From: Candidatus Pelagibacter ubique HIMB058
GTDB taxonomy: Bacteria; Pseudomonadota; Alphaproteobacteria; Pelagibacterales; Pelagibacteraceae
Reading direction: 5' to 3'
Assembly: GCA_000419545.1 (NCBI GenBank)
Contig: ATTF01000010.1
Location: forward strand, 3,723-38,257
Length of the DNA: 34,535 nucleotides
Below the pieces are notes generated by a model that was not told where the DNA came from, ran no database searches, and worked only from the letters and a program-made list of their open reading frames with translations. Shown here piece after piece: positions 1 through 20,503 of this stretch; position 1 is the stretch's first letter; every line of letters starts with the position of its first letter. Made by a program: the position numbers and the translations under genes.

Positions 1-509
1 AAAAAGGAATATTTTTAGCATTTCAATATCCGTTAGAAATACCAGGAGTAAATACTAATGTTTTTTTAAGGACCTCTCTTAATTCAGTAAGAAAAGCTAG
101 AGGTGAAAAAGAATTAGACACATTAAGTTTTTTAAAACTAGTTAAAGAAAAATCATCCGAACTTGGAATTGATGAGAAATTTTTATCACGCCAATTAAAT
201 GTTGGATTTTCTGGAGGAGAAAAGAAAAAAAATGAAATTTTGCAAATGAAAATACTTCAGCCAAAACTTTCAATTTTAGATGAGACTGACTCAGGTTTAG
301 ATATAGATGCATTAAGAATTGTTGCTGACGGAGTTAACTCATATAAAAATAAAGAAAATGCTTTCCTAATCATAACTCATTATCAAAGGCTATTAGATTA
401 TATAAAGCCAGATTTTATACATGTTTTATCTAAAGGAAAAATTGTTAAGACCGGGAACGCAGATCTTGGAGTTGAGTTAGAGAAAACTGGTTACGCGAAT
501 TTTATTTAA
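1..509 (+). CDS. sufC: SufC, Fe-S assembly ATPase (5' truncated by window edge)
   Basis: ABC-type ATPase subunit of the SufBCD scaffold complex that builds Fe-S clusters in the cytoplasm. The reading frame is open from base 3 and the N-terminus with the Walker A lies outside the window. Visible in order: the Q-loop FQYP followed by LEIPGV, the SufC-type signature [15 protein letters not shown], Walker B with [12 protein letters not shown], and the switch histidine in [11 protein letters not shown]. The KKKNE variant of the ABC signature and the ETDSGLD sequence are diagnostic for SufC over transporter ATPases. The stop codon is immediately followed by the sufD start, so the two are translationally adjacent in the suf operon. 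Confidence 0.97.
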
Positions 510-13409: not shown

Positions 13410-13432
13410 ATATTAAGTTATAAATTAATATT
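13409..13432. terminator. Possible weak bidirectional hairpin between lon and the GT17 gene
   Basis: A perfect 8-bp inverted repeat, AATATTAA and TTAATATT with an 8-nt loop, sits exactly between the two convergent stop codons. All stem pairs are A-T and there is no G/C clamp, so stability is low. The position makes a shared terminator plausible but chance is possible in such AT-rich DNA. Confidence 0.3.
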
Positions 13433-14322
13433 CAATCAATCCATTCTTGAAATTTGTTTAGGTTAGAAGAGATGTAAGTTGGTAATTTTTCTTTATCAAT
13501 TTTTTTCAAAATTGATTTTCCAGACCACTTATATCCTTTTTGATCGACATTATGATCATACATAACTCTCTTTTCCGAGATCATTTCTCTCAAATTATTG
13601 ATATTAAGACCACTTTCTTCATATTCATAGTGGTGGGCAAAATTTAACAATTTTTTTTCTAATTCTTCAGCAGTTCTAAGGCAAGTAAAATGCCAGCCAC
13701 CATTTTTTACAAAATATAAATTTGAATACTTTTTTTTAGAAAATAAAACATCCAGCCTCCAACTAGAGTATTTTTTTCCCTTAATATTTCTTATCCATTG
13801 TGGAGATAAAAAATTTTTTTTCTTTGTAGCTTTTGTTCCAAACCAATTATAATCCTCATAAAGAAGATTTAATTTATAGTAAAACATTTTTTGTTCAAAA
13901 ATGACTATATTGTTTTTTATTTTTTTAAAGTCCAATTCATTTAAGTTTGGTATTTCATCAAGGTCACTAATAAAAATTAAGTCATCATTGTTTGCCCCTT
14001 TAATTCCATTTGAAAGATTTTCCCTTTGAAAATAATCTCGGGCCATACCATTCAGAATTAATTTTTCGCCACGCTTTTCCTTTGTGTCAGCATCATTTAG
14101 CTCTAATATATTCTCTGGCTGTTCATCAACTACAATATAAGTTATTTTATCTTTAAATTTTTTAAATTTTTTTATATCGAATTTTAATTGTTTTGGTGAA
14201 CCATTATGGGTGTATGTTGCTTCTGTAATTACAAATTTTTTAACAAATTTATCAAGTGAATTTAAACGTATATCTAGAAGCAAATCTTCATCAAAATACA
14301 TGAAGCAATCGTATATATTCAT
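13432..14322 (-). CDS. Glycosyltransferase family 17-like protein
   Basis: Protein of 296 aa resembling the GT17 family (beta-1,4-GlcNAc transferase type). The opening IYDCFMYFDEDLLLDIRL and the segment VITEATYTHNGSPKQL are typical. The acidic metal-site motif DLIFISDLDEIPN (S119-D122) follows MARDYFQREN. A late WHFTCLR segment also fits. No signal peptide or membrane segment is seen, so it probably acts in the cytoplasm on a surface glycan precursor; acceptor and donor are unknown. It is divergent from the neighbouring SDR gene with 52 nt between them. Together they look like an accessory carbohydrate pair between core genes lon and anmK. Confidence 0.82.
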   Translation of the reverse strand: MNIYDCFMYFDEDLLLDIRLNSLDKFVKKFVITEATYTHNGSPKQLKFDIKKFKKFKDKITYIVVDEQPENILELNDADTKEKRGEKLILNGMARDYFQRENLSNGIKGANNDDLIFISDLDEIPNLNELDFKKIKNNIVIFEQKMFYYKLNLLYEDYNWFGTKATKKKNFLSPQWIRNIKGKKYSSWRLDVLFSKKKYSNLYFVKNGGWHFTCLRTAEELEKKLLNFAHHYEYEESGLNINNLREMISEKRVMYDHNVDQKGYKWSGKSILKKIDKEKLPTYISSNLNKFQEWID

Positions 14323-14374: not shown

Positions 14375-15172
14375 ATGAAGAAAAAAATAATCATTACTGG
14401 TGGGTTAGGCTATATAGGAACAGAACTATGTAAATTATATTCTGGCGTTAGTTGGCATCATGATATTACAATAATTGATAATAGGTTTATTTCTGAAAGA
14501 GTGAATCAGTTAAGAAATTGGAATATGGAATTTATTCAAGGAGATATCCTCAATAAAGAACTTGTCAAAAAATATTGTCATGATGCAGACGTAGTACATC
14601 ACTTAGCTGGAGTTACTGAGGTACCCAGAACTAAAACAGAATCTTCAAAAGAACAAGATGAAAAGATAAAAGAAGTTGGAGTGAGAGGAACACAAAATAT
14701 CTTAGATGTAATAAACAAAAAATGTAAAATTATTTTTCCTTCCACTCACGTTGTTTACGAAGGAATTAATGAAGTAAGAACTGATATAAAGGAAGATGAC
14801 GCTACAAAGCCAGTGCTATCATATTCTAGTTCTAAAGCATTGAATGAAGATCAACTAAAAAAATCTGGAAAAAATTATATTATTTTAAGACTTGGTTCAG
14901 TTTATGGTTATTCAACAGACAGTATGAGAATAGATATAATGCCAAATTTATTCTCAAAAATAGCATCTCAAAATGGAACTTTAAAATTATTTGCTGGAGG
15001 CAGACAAATAAAAAGTCTTGTTCCCTTAATCGACGTTGCAAGATGTTTCAAATTTATGGAGGAGAAAAATGAAATAAATTCTGAAATATTTAATTTAACG
15101 AAAGACACTCTATCAGTTAAAGAAGTGGCTCAAGTTTGTAAAATCTGTAAGTGTAGTAACTCCATCCTCTAG
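14375..15172 (+). CDS. NAD-dependent epimerase/dehydratase (extended SDR), 3'-truncated
   Basis: Sugar-nucleotide SDR with the Rossmann glycine motif GGLGYIG (residues 9-15), an active-site serine/threonine in FPSTHVVYEG, and YxxxK as Y150-K154 in SYSSSKALN. Such enzymes epimerise, dehydrate or reduce nucleotide sugars for surface glycans; the substrate is not clear. The reading frame is 265 aa, about 50-70 residues shorter than usual for this type. After SVKEVAQVCK the last nine residues (ICKCSNSIL) are simply the complement of anmK coding sequence. The gene therefore seems to have lost its own 3' end. The fold core is present but the substrate-side C-terminus is not, so activity is doubtful. 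Confidence 0.8.
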   Translation: MKKKIIITGGLGYIGTELCKLYSGVSWHHDITIIDNRFISERVNQLRNWNMEFIQGDILNKELVKKYCHDADVVHHLAGVTEVPRTKTESSKEQDEKIKEVGVRGTQNILDVINKKCKIIFPSTHVVYEGINEVRTDIKEDDATKPVLSYSSSKALNEDQLKKSGKNYIILRLGSVYGYSTDSMRIDIMPNLFSKIASQNGTLKLFAGGRQIKSLVPLIDVARCFKFMEEKNEINSEIFNLTKDTLSVKEVAQVCKICKCSNSIL

Positions 15173-15955
15173 TGATAATCCTCTTGCGAATGAAATATCA
15201 AAATCATTAGTATCAAAGGATTTTTTTTCCTTGCTTTCTCTATTTGAATAAAGTTCTTGTGCTTGTTCAAAAATAATTTCATTTTTTGTCCCACTTAAAG
15301 CTAAGTTACCGGCCTCATCAAATTTTTTATTAGAATTTTTTCTGACCCAAGAGTCGATTAGACAATTACCTGGTCCAAGATCCTTGCTGAAAAGATCACT
15401 AAAATTATTTTTTTCTTTTACAATGGTTATATTTGAGATACCTCCGATATTTAGAAAACAAACAGGTAGATTAATGTTATGTTGTAATGCTAACAAATGG
15501 TGAAATACAGGCGTTAATGGTGCACCTTGACCTCCATTTAAAATATCATTTCTCCTAAAATCATATACGATTTTTTTTTTGGTTAATTGACCTAAAAGTT
15601 TTCCATTACCTAATTGTCTTGAAATTTTTTCTTTAAAATTATGATAAATAGTTTGACCGTGAAATCCTACGATAGTCTCATCATCAATTTTAAAGTCTTT
15701 AATTATCTCAGCGTGGAAAATTGTTATTTTTCTCTCTAAGTCGTTTAGCTCACTATTAAAATCTGCTAGGTGAGAAATATTGTGAATTTTTTCTTTCAGT
15801 GTGTGAATATCTCTATAAATATTAAAGTCATATTCAAAATATTTGTCTGCCAGAACCTTGTACTCATCAAGTCCATTAGTTTTAATTAAAGACGCATCAA
15901 CTCCATCCCCAGAAGTACCGCTCATTAAACCTAAAGATATCCAATTTTTATTCAT
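15113..15955 (-). CDS. anmK: Anhydro-N-acetylmuramic acid kinase, 3'-truncated (probably non-functional)
   Basis: AnmK phosphorylates and opens 1,6-anhydro-MurNAc in cell-wall recycling. The N-terminal kinase loop GLMSGTSGDGVDAS (9-22), the FHGQTIYH motif near 98, NGGQGAPLTP near 140, and the catalytic aspartate D201 in LGPGNCLIDSW are all clear. The reading frame is 280 aa against roughly 370 for the family. Homology stops after the SLEDGVTTLTDFT segment (T273), and the last seven residues (NLSHFFN) are the complement of the SDR gene. The missing C-terminal part normally supplies a glycine-rich nucleotide-binding motif, so this copy is probably a pseudogene or an assembly artefact. tyrS lies divergently upstream. 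Confidence 0.85.
   Translation of the reverse strand: MNKNWISLGLMSGTSGDGVDASLIKTNGLDEYKVLADKYFEYDFNIYRDIHTLKEKIHNISHLADFNSELNDLERKITIFHAEIIKDFKIDDETIVGFHGQTIYHNFKEKISRQLGNGKLLGQLTKKKIVYDFRRNDILNGGQGAPLTPVFHHLLALQHNINLPVCFLNIGGISNITIVKEKNNFSDLFSKDLGPGNCLIDSWVRKNSNKKFDEAGNLALSGTKNEIIFEQAQELYSNRESKEKKSFDTNDFDISFARGLSLEDGVTTLTDFTNLSHFFN
15137..15142. other. Putative deletion or rearrangement junction fusing SDR and anmK 3' ends
   Basis: The plausible family-like sequence of the plus-strand SDR ends at about K256 (base 15142) and that of minus-strand anmK at about T273 (base 15137). The two meet within six bases, TGTAAA. Both genes are cut at the same place, as expected of one deletion between convergent genes, possibly at a short microhomology, or of a false join during assembly. 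Confidence 0.6.
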
Positions 15956-16011: not shown

Positions 16012-17250
16012 ATGAAAAATAATTTTTTACAAGAAATGCAAAAACGAGGTTACCTCAATCAATGCACAAATTTAGATGAATTGAGTAAAATTTGTAATAA
16101 AAACCCTATATCTGGATATATAGGTTTTGATTGCACTGCTAGCAGCCTTCACGTCGGAAGTTTATTGCAAATAATGATTTTAAAATTAATGCAGAAACAT
16201 GGTCATAGACCAATAGTTTTATTGGGAGGCGGAACAACTCTAATCGGAGATCCATCAGGAAAAGATGCGACTAGAAAAATGTTAGGAAACGAAGAAATAA
16301 AAGAAAATATTGATAGTATTAAAAAAGTATTTAACAAAATTTTAGATACAACTGATAAAAATACTTCACCTGTATTCGTTAATAATGCTGAATGGTTAAC
16401 AAAATTAAAATATATTGATTTTCTAAGAGATGTTGGAAGTCATTTTACAATCAACAAGATGTTAACTTTCGATAGTGTTAAATTAAGATTAGATAGAGAA
16501 CAATCACTAAGCTATATGGAGTTTAATTATATGATTTTACAAGCTTATGATTTTTATGAATTGTTTAAAAAGAATCAATGTATCCTACAAATTGGAGGGT
16601 CAGATCAATGGGGTAATATTGTTAATGGAGTGGATCTTATAAGAAGAAAATTAAAAAAAGAGGCTTTTGGTATAACGTCTCCGCTAATAACCTTAGCATC
16701 AGGTGCAAAAATGGGAAAAACAGAAAAAGGTGCTATCTGGTTAAATGAAGAGGAATTATCTCCATATGATTATTGGCAATTTTGGAGAAATACTGACGAT
16801 CGTGATGTAAAAAGATTTATTAAATTCTTCACAGAAATTGAAATTGATGAGGCAGAGGACTTATTTAAAAAAGAAAAAAATATTAATAATTTAAAAATTT
16901 TATTAGCAAACGAGGCAACAAAAATTCTTCATGGTGAAGAGTCCGCACAAAAAGCTGCGAAAACAGCTAAAGATACTTTTGAAGGAGGTGCATTAGCATC
17001 AGGTCTACCTGAAATAAATATTAAAAAAGATGAAATTAAAAATGGAGTTAATATTATCGATATAATTGCTAACAATAAAATCCTATCATCAAAAAGTGAA
17101 GTTAGAAGAGTAATCGCAAACAAAGGTTTAAAGTTGAATGATAAAATAATTGATGATGAAAAAAAAATACTACAATTAAAAGATTTTGAAACAAATACTT
17201 TAAAACTCTCTTACGGTAAAAAGAAACACTATATAATTAAGATTATTTAG
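16012..17250 (+). CDS. tyrS: Tyrosyl-tRNA synthetase
   Basis: Class I aminoacyl-tRNA synthetase of 412 aa charging tRNA-Tyr. The HIGH-like motif is HVGS (47-50) following GYIGFDCTASSL. The tyrosine-site region includes YMILQAYDFYELF and QIGGSDQWGNIVNG. The KMSKS-like motif is KMGKT (233-237). A C-terminal S4-like RNA-binding domain follows from about residue 345 (SSKSEVRRVIANKGLKLN). Length is normal. It overlaps the convergent AsmA-like gene by 8 nt at the 3' end. Confidence 0.97.
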   Translation: MKNNFLQEMQKRGYLNQCTNLDELSKICNKNPISGYIGFDCTASSLHVGSLLQIMILKLMQKHGHRPIVLLGGGTTLIGDPSGKDATRKMLGNEEIKENIDSIKKVFNKILDTTDKNTSPVFVNNAEWLTKLKYIDFLRDVGSHFTINKMLTFDSVKLRLDREQSLSYMEFNYMILQAYDFYELFKKNQCILQIGGSDQWGNIVNGVDLIRRKLKKEAFGITSPLITLASGAKMGKTEKGAIWLNEEELSPYDYWQFWRNTDDRDVKRFIKFFTEIEIDEAEDLFKKEKNINNLKILLANEATKILHGEESAQKAAKTAKDTFEGGALASGLPEINIKKDEIKNGVNIIDIIANNKILSSKSEVRRVIANKGLKLNDKIIDDEKKILQLKDFETNTLKLSYGKKKHYIIKII

Positions 17251-19417
17251 AGATTTTATTTTTATCAACAATTTTTTGAATAAACCTAGGTGTCAATGTT
17301 CTAATTGGATTAATTGTAGTTTTTACATTACCTTTTGGTCCTTTCATTTTAAAACTAACTCCAAATAACCCTTCTCCCACCTCTTTGGGAATTACAATTT
17401 TTCCAATCACAGGAATTTTCGAAATCATTTTATTTAAAGTTTTAGCAGGAACCAAAGTTCCCTTTAAACTTGTTAATCCTGTATTGTCTTGATAGCCTTC
17501 AATTAAAACTGACATACTAGGACCTAAGGCAAGTATTTCATTTAGTTTTAAAATATCCCTATCTTTTTCCATGTTTATCTCTAATAAATCAAAAGAAAGT
17601 CCTTCTCCTTCTGCTAAATCAGCAAGGCCTCCCAAATCTGCAAGTGATAATAATTTTATAACACCGGGTGCATTAACAACTTTAAAATTTTCAATTTTGA
17701 GTTTTGAATTAGATTTTGGACCATCAATCAAAGAGGTAAAAAGCAGTTTGCCTCCAGTAAGGCCTTTAAAAAAACTATATTCGGTTAGTAATGGCCGGGG
17801 TAGGTCAGAATAAATCTCCAAAAACTTCTTTTCAGAGCCATTATCTTTTTTTAAAGAAATGTCTAAAAAATTATTTCCACCAAAATCGCCTTTGGATGAA
17901 ATTTTAACAAATTCCCCTTTTTTTATCTCTCCGATTAATCTAAAATTATCTAGTTTTTCAGAAAGTGGAACCTTAATATTTCTAAAATCAATTTCAATAT
18001 TAGTGTTTATTTTTTTAAAATTATAGCTTTTATCCTGCTGGTTTAAAAGTTTAGGTAAATTAGTAGCATCAAACCTGCCACCTTTTATTATAATTTTTTT
18101 ATCCCATTGGATAGAGAAGTTATTATTTTTAGTGCTGATATCTACTTTTTTTAAAGACTCAAAATTATTATCTTTAAATTTTAAATCATTGATATTAATT
18201 ACATTATTTTGTTCCTTAATATAAAGTTTTTTTAAATTAGAAATATTTTTATTCTTTTCAAATTCTAATGAAACTTTTGCAATTTTATCTTTGGGTTTTT
18301 TATAATTAATTAAATCAAGATCAAAACTATCTTTGTAGTCAAAATTTGCATTAATTTCTAATATATCGCTTTTAAAAATACTTTCTAAATCTAATTGTAA
18401 AAAATCTAAATTATCAAAAGAATATTTTCCATTAACGCCTAGATTAAAATTTTTTTTACCTAAATCTAAATCAACTTGAGTATCTAATAGAAAAATTTCT
18501 TCAAATTCTTTAATATTAAAATTATTTTTTATAGTTTTATATAATTCAATTCTACTATTTTTAACCTTGCCAGAAAAATTGTAATTATAATTTGTTAATT
18601 TGTAAGTTTTATCAAGATTAACTAAAATATTATTATTAAAATTCCCTTCTAATTCTTTTATATTTCCTGCTAGCTTTAAATTTGATAATAATTCATTTAT
18701 TTTTTTTATATTATTTTTTTTTAGATTAATATTTGAAATAAAGTTTGAACTTAATTTAACTCCGTTCTCTAAATTTAATTTTATATCCCCATTGTTAATT
18801 TCTATACCATCTATTTTGCCAAATAAGTTTTTTATTAAAATATCTTCTTTATCTGCAAAAAAATTTAAATTTGTATCTGATAATATTATATCTTTAAAAA
18901 GATCAGCTCTAAAATCTGCAACTTCACCTCTAATAATATAATTTTCTACTTCTCCATTCTTGTCTAGAAAGAGTTCAATTTCTGAAATTAATTTTGCCTT
19001 TTTTATTTTATAATTAAGAAAATTTTTAAAATTTGAAGGTTTAATAAATTTAGAAAACTCTTTTAATTGAGCATAACTTAATTCATCTAAAATGATATTA
19101 ATTTTATTTATTTTCAAATCTGTTTTTAATATAGAAAAAAAATCTACATACACTTTTATATTTTTAGTAGGTATATCTTTATTACGATAATTAATTTTTG
19201 GATTCTGAGTTTCAATAAATAAACTGATTTCATTTAAATCTAATTTGAAATTTACAGTTTGTAAATTTAAATCAATATTTTTTGTATCCGCAATTTTATT
19301 TGAAATTAGTTTATTAAACTTATCTGTTTTTATTCCTATCGTAGATAAAGTTGAAACAAATAAAATTATAGAAAATATAAAAAGTAAGAATAAATAATTT
19401 AAAATTTTTCTTATCAT
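17243..19417 (-). CDS. AsmA/YhdP-like envelope protein
   Basis: Protein of 724 aa with one N-terminal membrane anchor (NYLFLLFIFSIILFVSTLS) and a long, probably periplasmic, beta-rich region. The last 150 residues hold the best conserved part, including VVNAPGVIKLLSLADLGGL, a GEGLSFDLLEI segment, and VLIEGYQDNTGLTSLKGTLVP, as in the AsmA-like C-terminal domain of DUF3971/YhdP-type proteins. Members of this superfamily are linked to phospholipid traffic to the outer membrane; that role is inference here. Its ATG overlaps the prfB stop as ATGA, so it is the last gene of a PBP1A-prfB-asmA operon. The middle of the protein is poorly conserved and very rich in Asn, Lys and Ile. Confidence 0.8.
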   Translation of the reverse strand: MIRKILNYLFLLFIFSIILFVSTLSTIGIKTDKFNKLISNKIADTKNIDLNLQTVNFKLDLNEISLFIETQNPKINYRNKDIPTKNIKVYVDFFSILKTDLKINKINIILDELSYAQLKEFSKFIKPSNFKNFLNYKIKKAKLISEIELFLDKNGEVENYIIRGEVADFRADLFKDIILSDTNLNFFADKEDILIKNLFGKIDGIEINNGDIKLNLENGVKLSSNFISNINLKKNNIKKINELLSNLKLAGNIKELEGNFNNNILVNLDKTYKLTNYNYNFSGKVKNSRIELYKTIKNNFNIKEFEEIFLLDTQVDLDLGKKNFNLGVNGKYSFDNLDFLQLDLESIFKSDILEINANFDYKDSFDLDLINYKKPKDKIAKVSLEFEKNKNISNLKKLYIKEQNNVININDLKFKDNNFESLKKVDISTKNNNFSIQWDKKIIIKGGRFDATNLPKLLNQQDKSYNFKKINTNIEIDFRNIKVPLSEKLDNFRLIGEIKKGEFVKISSKGDFGGNNFLDISLKKDNGSEKKFLEIYSDLPRPLLTEYSFFKGLTGGKLLFTSLIDGPKSNSKLKIENFKVVNAPGVIKLLSLADLGGLADLAEGEGLSFDLLEINMEKDRDILKLNEILALGPSMSVLIEGYQDNTGLTSLKGTLVPAKTLNKMISKIPVIGKIVIPKEVGEGLFGVSFKMKGPKGNVKTTINPIRTLTPRFIQKIVDKNKISK

Positions 19418-20503
19418 CTATTTTTTAAACCTTCTTCAATAAACAAATCTATATTTCCGTCTAAAACTCTTGCTGGATTTGTATCCTCTAATTTACTTCT
19501 TAAATCTTTTACTAATTGATAAGGTTGTAAGACATATGATCTTATTTGATGTCCCCATCCTATATCTGTTTTAGAAGTTAACTCTTTTTGATTTTCTTCC
19601 TCTTTTTTTTGAATTTCATGTTCGTATAATCTTGCTTTAAGCATTTTAAAGCATGTTTCCTTATTTTTATGTTGTGATCTTTCATTTTGACATTGCACAA
19701 CAATCTTGGTTGGTAAATGGGTTATTCTAACTGCGCTATCTGTAGTATTTACATGTTGCCCGCCTGCCCCGCTGGATCTGTAAGTGTCTATTCTCAAATC
19801 TTTTTCATCAATCTTAATGTTAATATCATCTTCAATAGCAGGATAAATCCACACACTTGCAAAACTTGTGTGTCTTCTAGCACCACTATCGAATGGTGAA
19901 ATACGTACAAGTCTATGAACGCCAGACTCTGATTTCATCAAACCATATAGGAAGTCTCCCTCTACCTTTATAGTGGAAGATTTTATGCCAGCTTCTTCAC
20001 CTTTATGTTCACTAATTATTTCATATTTAAATTTTTTTTTATCAAACCACTTCATATACATTCTTCTAAGCATATCTGCCCAATCCTGACTTTCTGTGCC
20101 TCCCGCACCTGCGTGAATCTCAAGATAAATATCATAGTTATCGTTTTCTCCAGATAAGAAACAATTTGCCTCTGTTTTTTTTATCTCTAATAAAATTTTT
20201 GAAATTTTTTTTACACAATCTTGAATTGTCTCTTCATCTTTTTCTTGAGTGGCTAGTTCGAATAAATCATTAATATTTACTAATTCATTATTGAGTTTTT
20301 TACTTGAGTTTAAAATTTCTGAAAAAAATTTTTTTTGCTTTACAGTTTTTTTTACTAAACTTTTATCTTTCCAAAAATTTTCGGTGTTAGAAATTTTTTC
20401 TAATTCTATTAATTTTTCTTCAATATTTTCTTTATCAAAGATACCCCCTGATATTATTCAGAGATTTTTTTGCTAAGTTAAAGTAGTTATCAAAATTATC
20501 CAT
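19414..20503 (-). CDS. prfB: Peptide chain release factor 2, with programmed +1 frameshift
   Basis: RF2 terminates translation at UGA and UAA. The gene is in two overlapping frames. A 22-codon leader starts with ATG at 20503 and reads MDNFDNYFNLAKKSLNNIRG-YL. It meets an in-frame UGA at 20437-20435, after which the ribosome must skip one base to continue in the +1 frame from 20436 (DKENIEEKLIELEK) to the stop at 19414. The joined product is 362 aa against 365 in E. coli. Key motifs are the stop-recognition tripeptide SPF (202-204) in RISPFDSGARR and GGQ (247-249) in SSGAGGQHVN, plus EIHAGAGGTESQDWADM upstream. The start overlaps the PBP1A stop by one base. A single-frame ORF call would lose the first third of the protein. 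Confidence 0.96.
20435..20449 (-). promoter_or_regulatory. Programmed +1 frameshift site of prfB
   Basis: Read on the minus strand the zero frame is AGG GGG TAT CTT TGA: an internal Shine-Dalgarno (AGGGGG), a spacer, a slippery CTT, and the UGA that RF2 itself recognises. This is the same arrangement as the E. coli prfB site. When RF2 is low, the ribosome pauses at UGA and shifts, giving autoregulation (established for E. coli). Confidence 0.95.

Follow-up and report, generated by a model that had tools for sequence, protein, structure and literature searches.

In the window, the 34,535-nucleotide stretch of DNA analysed here (C10:3723-38257, reaching the contig end in G000, an assembly of 59 contigs), an SDR gene and anmK run into one another at a single junction, J1. 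Judged by comparison with the rest of the assembly and with related genomes, J1 is almost certainly an artefact, namely an inverted (fold-back) chimeric join that most likely arose by strand switching during multiple displacement amplification (MDA) and was retained by the assembler. Nothing at this site points to a biological deletion or to new biology.

On the plus strand the SDR frame spans 14375-15172 (265 aa), and on the minus strand the anmK frame spans 15113-15955 (280 aa). The two overlap, and the family sequence of both ends at one common point, beyond which each frame reads through the complement of the other gene to a chance stop. An earlier reading of the letters alone, referred to below as the sequence-only reading, had described this arrangement, and both the frames and the intact copies of the two genes confirm it. 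The same reading gave the shared junction as six bases; comparison with the intact copies (C10:3627-3721 and C10:1-163) upholds a single site but widens it to seven, TGTAAAA at 15137-15143. No promoter-like or terminator-like sites were found in 15000-15400, where shuffled sequences gave means of 1.2 and 0.1. Around the junction, the window contains the following features:

13432-14322, minus strand: gene resembling glycosyltransferase (GT) family 17, the true neighbour of SDR on its left (Pfam Glyco_transf_17, 3e-16)
14375-15143, plus strand: SDR (NAD-dependent epimerase/dehydratase) domain, N-terminal 256 codons; the true sequence stops at the junction
15113-15136, minus strand: spurious end of the anmK frame, the reverse complement of SDR read to a chance stop
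15137-15143, no strand: chimeric junction J1, where TGTAAAA occurs both on the SDR strand and in the reverse complement of anmK
15144-15172, plus strand: spurious end of the SDR frame, the reverse complement of anmK read to a chance stop
15137-15955, minus strand: anmK (anhydro-N-acetylmuramic acid kinase), codons 1-273, with the last ~99 located at C10:164-463
16012-17250, plus strand: tyrS, true divergent neighbour of anmK, named from its translation and adjoining anmK in 80 of 80 relatives (best 80 of 107)

Searching the assembly with window 14900-15400 returned, besides the query itself, two matches, C10:1-163 and C10:3627-3724. The former equals window 15299-15137 on the reverse strand at 100% identity and continues to the real end of AnmK, and the latter corresponds to window 15143-15046 on the reverse strand at 99%, being identical between C10:3627-3721 and window 15143-15049 and continuing into the real SDR tail. 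The intact parental sequences of the join are present in C10:1-463 and C10:3419-3721, and the contig leads into the window as follows:

C10:164-463, plus strand: real C-terminus of AnmK, with its stop at 463; ~99 codons outside the window, 3.3 kb before it
C10:460-1116, minus strand: alpha/beta hydrolase, named by Pfam
C10:1249-1674: Rrf2 regulator, named by Pfam
C10:1671-3107: sufB, named from its translation
ending at C10:3418: sufC, partial, named from its translation
C10:3419-3721, reverse strand: second copy of SDR, reaching ~70 codons past the window's break
C10:3722: a single N, directly before window base 1
window 1-86, plus strand: duplicated part of sufC, equal to C10:3333-3418; the window restarts inside sufC

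Names of the suf, clp, lon and tyrS genes were taken from translations, and the glycosyltransferase, the hydrolase and Rrf2 were scanned against Pfam.

Both genes are incomplete at J1, to very different extents. The anmK frame of the window covers only positions 4-234 of the 367 in the Pfam AnmK profile (PF03702), and C10:2-460 covers positions 260-363; scanned separately, the two pieces together match the family length. The C-terminal truncation of AnmK proposed in the sequence-only reading stands, amounting to about 99 of an implied 372 codons (273 lie in the window) rather than roughly 90. For SDR, which matches Pfam Epimerase (PF01370) at 1.1e-26, the proposed loss of 50-70 residues was far too small: about 600 are probably missing, if this genome resembles those in which the open frame spans 845-873 aa, 94 of the 118 other genomes of the genus that match closely. 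The frame is shorter in the remaining 24 of 118, some of these matches lying at contig ends and others, G141 (380 aa) among them, having no obvious contig end beside them. The SDR frame represents the N-terminal portion of a larger protein, one that combines SDR and methyltransferase in most relatives; in L092, the one relative scanned, PF01370 is followed by the methyltransferase-type domains PF08421, PF13489 and PF08484. That SDR-methyltransferase gene (L092 1501-3765, genome G094) is the one beside lon in this genus; its middle part looks cupin-like by eye only, and no Pfam cupin match was found in the protein at 0.001. The remainder of the SDR protein did not turn up in the assembly searched, in which C45-C59 read as N, and the same query matched five of five other genomes. 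The far side of the true SDR locus is missing from the assembly as searched.

Among the best 80 of 107 anmK loci found in genome contigs, the AnmK C-terminus continues directly, followed by the hydrolase, in 79, the sole exception being L010, which ends 12 bases past the match. Rrf2 and SufB were found in 76 of these 80 loci; the four others, L010, L015, L026 and L062, extend only a short way in that direction. Within flanks no longer than 10 kb, SDR, GT and Lon matches beside anmK were found in none of the 80. At E <= 1e-20, the SDR query had matches in 121 of 151 same-genus genomes, a count that includes the window's own genome and two genomes (G030 and G069) in which the match is a distant one, at about 30% identity. 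In all of the 29 best-scoring SDR loci, own genome excluded, the N-terminal part continues unbroken into the tail seen at C10:3626-3419, and the gene order is lon(+) GT(-) SDR(+).

The spacing of the two genes was obtained from 30 same-genus genomes with an SDR match, chosen as fairly contiguous. anmK is present in 29 of them (G018 had no match), on the same contig as SDR in 26 and on a separate contig in three (G023, G049, G104). Wherever the two share a contig they lie on the same strand (26/26), with start-to-start distances of 17.4-20.4 kb in 25 genomes and 55.4 kb in G034 (median 18,340). Convergent genes, as the sequence-only reading had it, occur in the present assembly only. Once C10 is unfolded, anmK and SDR become co-directional, in the order anmK(+) - hydrolase - rrf2 - sufBCDS ... 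lon - GT(-) - SDR(+), and simple arithmetic predicts a start-to-start distance of 18,362, against the median of 18,340 in relatives. Order and spacing agree with those of the conserved SAR11 locus tyrS-anmK-hydrolase-rrf2-sufBCDS ... lon-GT-SDR, from which the present assembly differs in that its SDR protein is incomplete.

This organization leaves practically no chance for the explanation offered earlier, in which the convergent SDR and anmK genes lost their 3' ends, together with the genes between them, through one genuine deletion. A single break point common to both frames is what such an event would leave, but the C-terminus of anmK and further SDR sequence are intact elsewhere on the same contig, and the genes lie about 18 kb apart in relatives. 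Moreover, deletion alone cannot produce facing genes, because the two are co-directional in all 26 of the relatives that carry both on one contig. The idea that the lost segment held glycan genes fares no better, since the stretch between the two genes in unfolded C10, running from the suf genes through clpP, clpX and lon to the glycosyltransferase, is already on the contig. What does gain support, from the intact copies and from the gene order of relatives, is the false join that had been mentioned as an alternative, and its form is that of an inverted chimera.

A second inverted join, J2, has the same geometry as J1. At C10:3418/3419, sufC passes into the reverse complement of the SDR tail, the partners being about 15.3 kb apart. 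Its overlap was taken from relatives because the assembly lacks the SDR continuation; five loci were looked at, and the sought motif was present in two (L092 and L094), which suggests that the overlap is probably four bases, TGAA.

J2 also bears on whether J1 could be one end of a real inversion of ~18.3 kb, from anmK to SDR, through recombination at the short inverted repeat TTTTACA/TGTAAAA, carried by some cells of a mixed population or by one chromosome copy. J1 has the exact form of one inversion end, and the intact and joined forms are both present in the assembly. We nevertheless regard an inversion as highly improbable. It would have to leave a reciprocal join of the anmK 3' part to the SDR tail, and this was not found in the assembly searches, in which C45-C59 read as N: queries with the anmK C-terminus and the SDR tail recovered the intact contexts, J1 and J2 only, besides short or weak matches in C5 (36 bases at 92%) and C3 (73% identity). 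Furthermore, J2, a different inverted join with the same partner, is left unexplained by one inversion, and an inversion, which 0 of 26 relatives show, would break two genes that are unbroken in relatives. Were it real, some members of a SAR11 population would carry a rare inversion that interrupts anmK and the SDR-methyltransferase glycan gene at once.

The reading that we prefer, a chimera formed during MDA, would proceed as follows. In the amplification of a single SAR11 (Pelagibacteraceae) cell, phi29 polymerase would switch strands, such that a 3' end in one gene pairs through TGTAAAA/TTTTACA with the other gene, at a distance of about 18.3 kb, and is copied in the opposite direction, turning everything from 15137 onward round relative to the rest; the assembler would then have kept the chimeric join. 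The real chromosome would read tyrS(-) anmK(+) hydrolase(-) rrf2 sufB sufC sufD sufS ... clpX lon GT(-) SDR(+), with both genes continuing past the break. In simulations of random inverted joins in the window, which has 28% GC, an overlap of at least 7 bases arises with P = 0.0018 and one of at least 4 with P = 0.035. As a chance overlap of 7 or more is this rare, the overlap at J1 was probably causal for the join, and that at J2, about 4 bases by comparison with relatives, less clearly so.

A pure error of the assembler or scaffolder, with no chimeric DNA molecule behind it, is an unlikely source of J1. Elsewhere the assembly does carry signs of such errors, including the single N at C10:3722 with duplicated sequence after it and the single N in C38, after which the C2 start is repeated. 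J1, however, is free of any N, and its 7-base overlap is shorter than the k-mers of short-read assemblers, which are longer than 7 bases; some chimeric molecule or read is therefore needed.

That amplification rather than the cell made J1 is what we infer. Isolate names with AG-, AH-, SAG or SCGC, which we take to denote single cells, are carried by 79 of the 80 anmK relatives (best 80 of 107), and by analogy the present sample was presumably MDA-amplified as well; a number of the AG-, AH- and RIS_SAG records among the relatives are prefixed 'MAG:'. According to the part of Lasken and Stockwell (2007, PMC1855051) available to us, inverted joins made up 406 of 475 MDA chimeras obtained from a single amplified E. 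coli cell, and most showed complementarity of 2-21 bases. J1 resembles the inverted chimeras described there in its inverted segments, short common sequence, intact parents and skipped intervening DNA. The genes are head-on in the window, as opposed to co-directional in 26 of 26 relatives, and at J2 sufC is followed in the same manner by the SDR tail in reverse complement; the complementarity of 7 bases at J1, and probably 4 at J2, falls within the range of 2-21. In the same portion of that paper, partners of inverted chimeras were under 10 kb apart in 337 of 406 cases and more than 10 kb apart in 69, with complementarity in only 34.8% of the inverted joins beyond 10 kb. At 18.3 and 15.3 kb, J1 and J2 are unlike most of those chimeras, the distance under 10 kb being a tendency and no requirement. 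They also differ from the chimeras of PMC1855051, as far as this portion describes them, in that amplification of the present sample is something we infer. For single-cell genomes, the accessible part of a paper on contamination chimerism (PMC11247762) quotes 1.5 misassemblies per 100 kb as the average.

Annotated as it stands, the contig would make both genes look truncated and place them in a false neighbourhood, and any inference about gene loss or surface glycans drawn from it as assembled would be wrong. The fold-back is exposed even without reads, by comparing strand and start-to-start distance with relatives.

A sister assembly contains an artefact of the same kind. In L061 (RIS_SAG_13), an inverted join at 15058-15064, near a contig end and in the same suf operon, turns sufS round; the alignments there, at 88-90% identity, overlap by about 7 bases.

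Within the present assembly, the ends of the other contigs were screened for fold-backs in the 43 of 58 that are readable (C1-C9 and C11-C44), the 15 contigs C45-C59 (about 25 kb) reading as N. At the ends of these 43, nothing else could be proven to be an inverted chimera of the J1 type. End-to-end overlaps among contigs reach 1,115 bases, between the C2 start and the C38 end; in C38, the N at base 385 of L218 precedes 1,115 bases that are identical to the C2 start, and both single-N joins seen in the assembly (C10 and C38) adjoin duplicated sequence. C12 and C29 each have one end with an internal direct repeat of about 100 bases. Additionally, C42 of this assembly (3,694 bases) carries the same 95 bases at both ends in direct orientation (L184 1-95 and L222 1406-1500), which may reflect either a small circle or one more overlap from assembly.

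Away from the junction, a minus-strand gene of the window at 19414-20503 shows an apparent programmed +1 frameshift, with AGGGGGTATCTTTGA at 20449-20435 and the long frame beginning just after it. We take this gene to be prfB (release factor 2) and the motif to be its ordinary programmed +1 frameshift, which is known biology.
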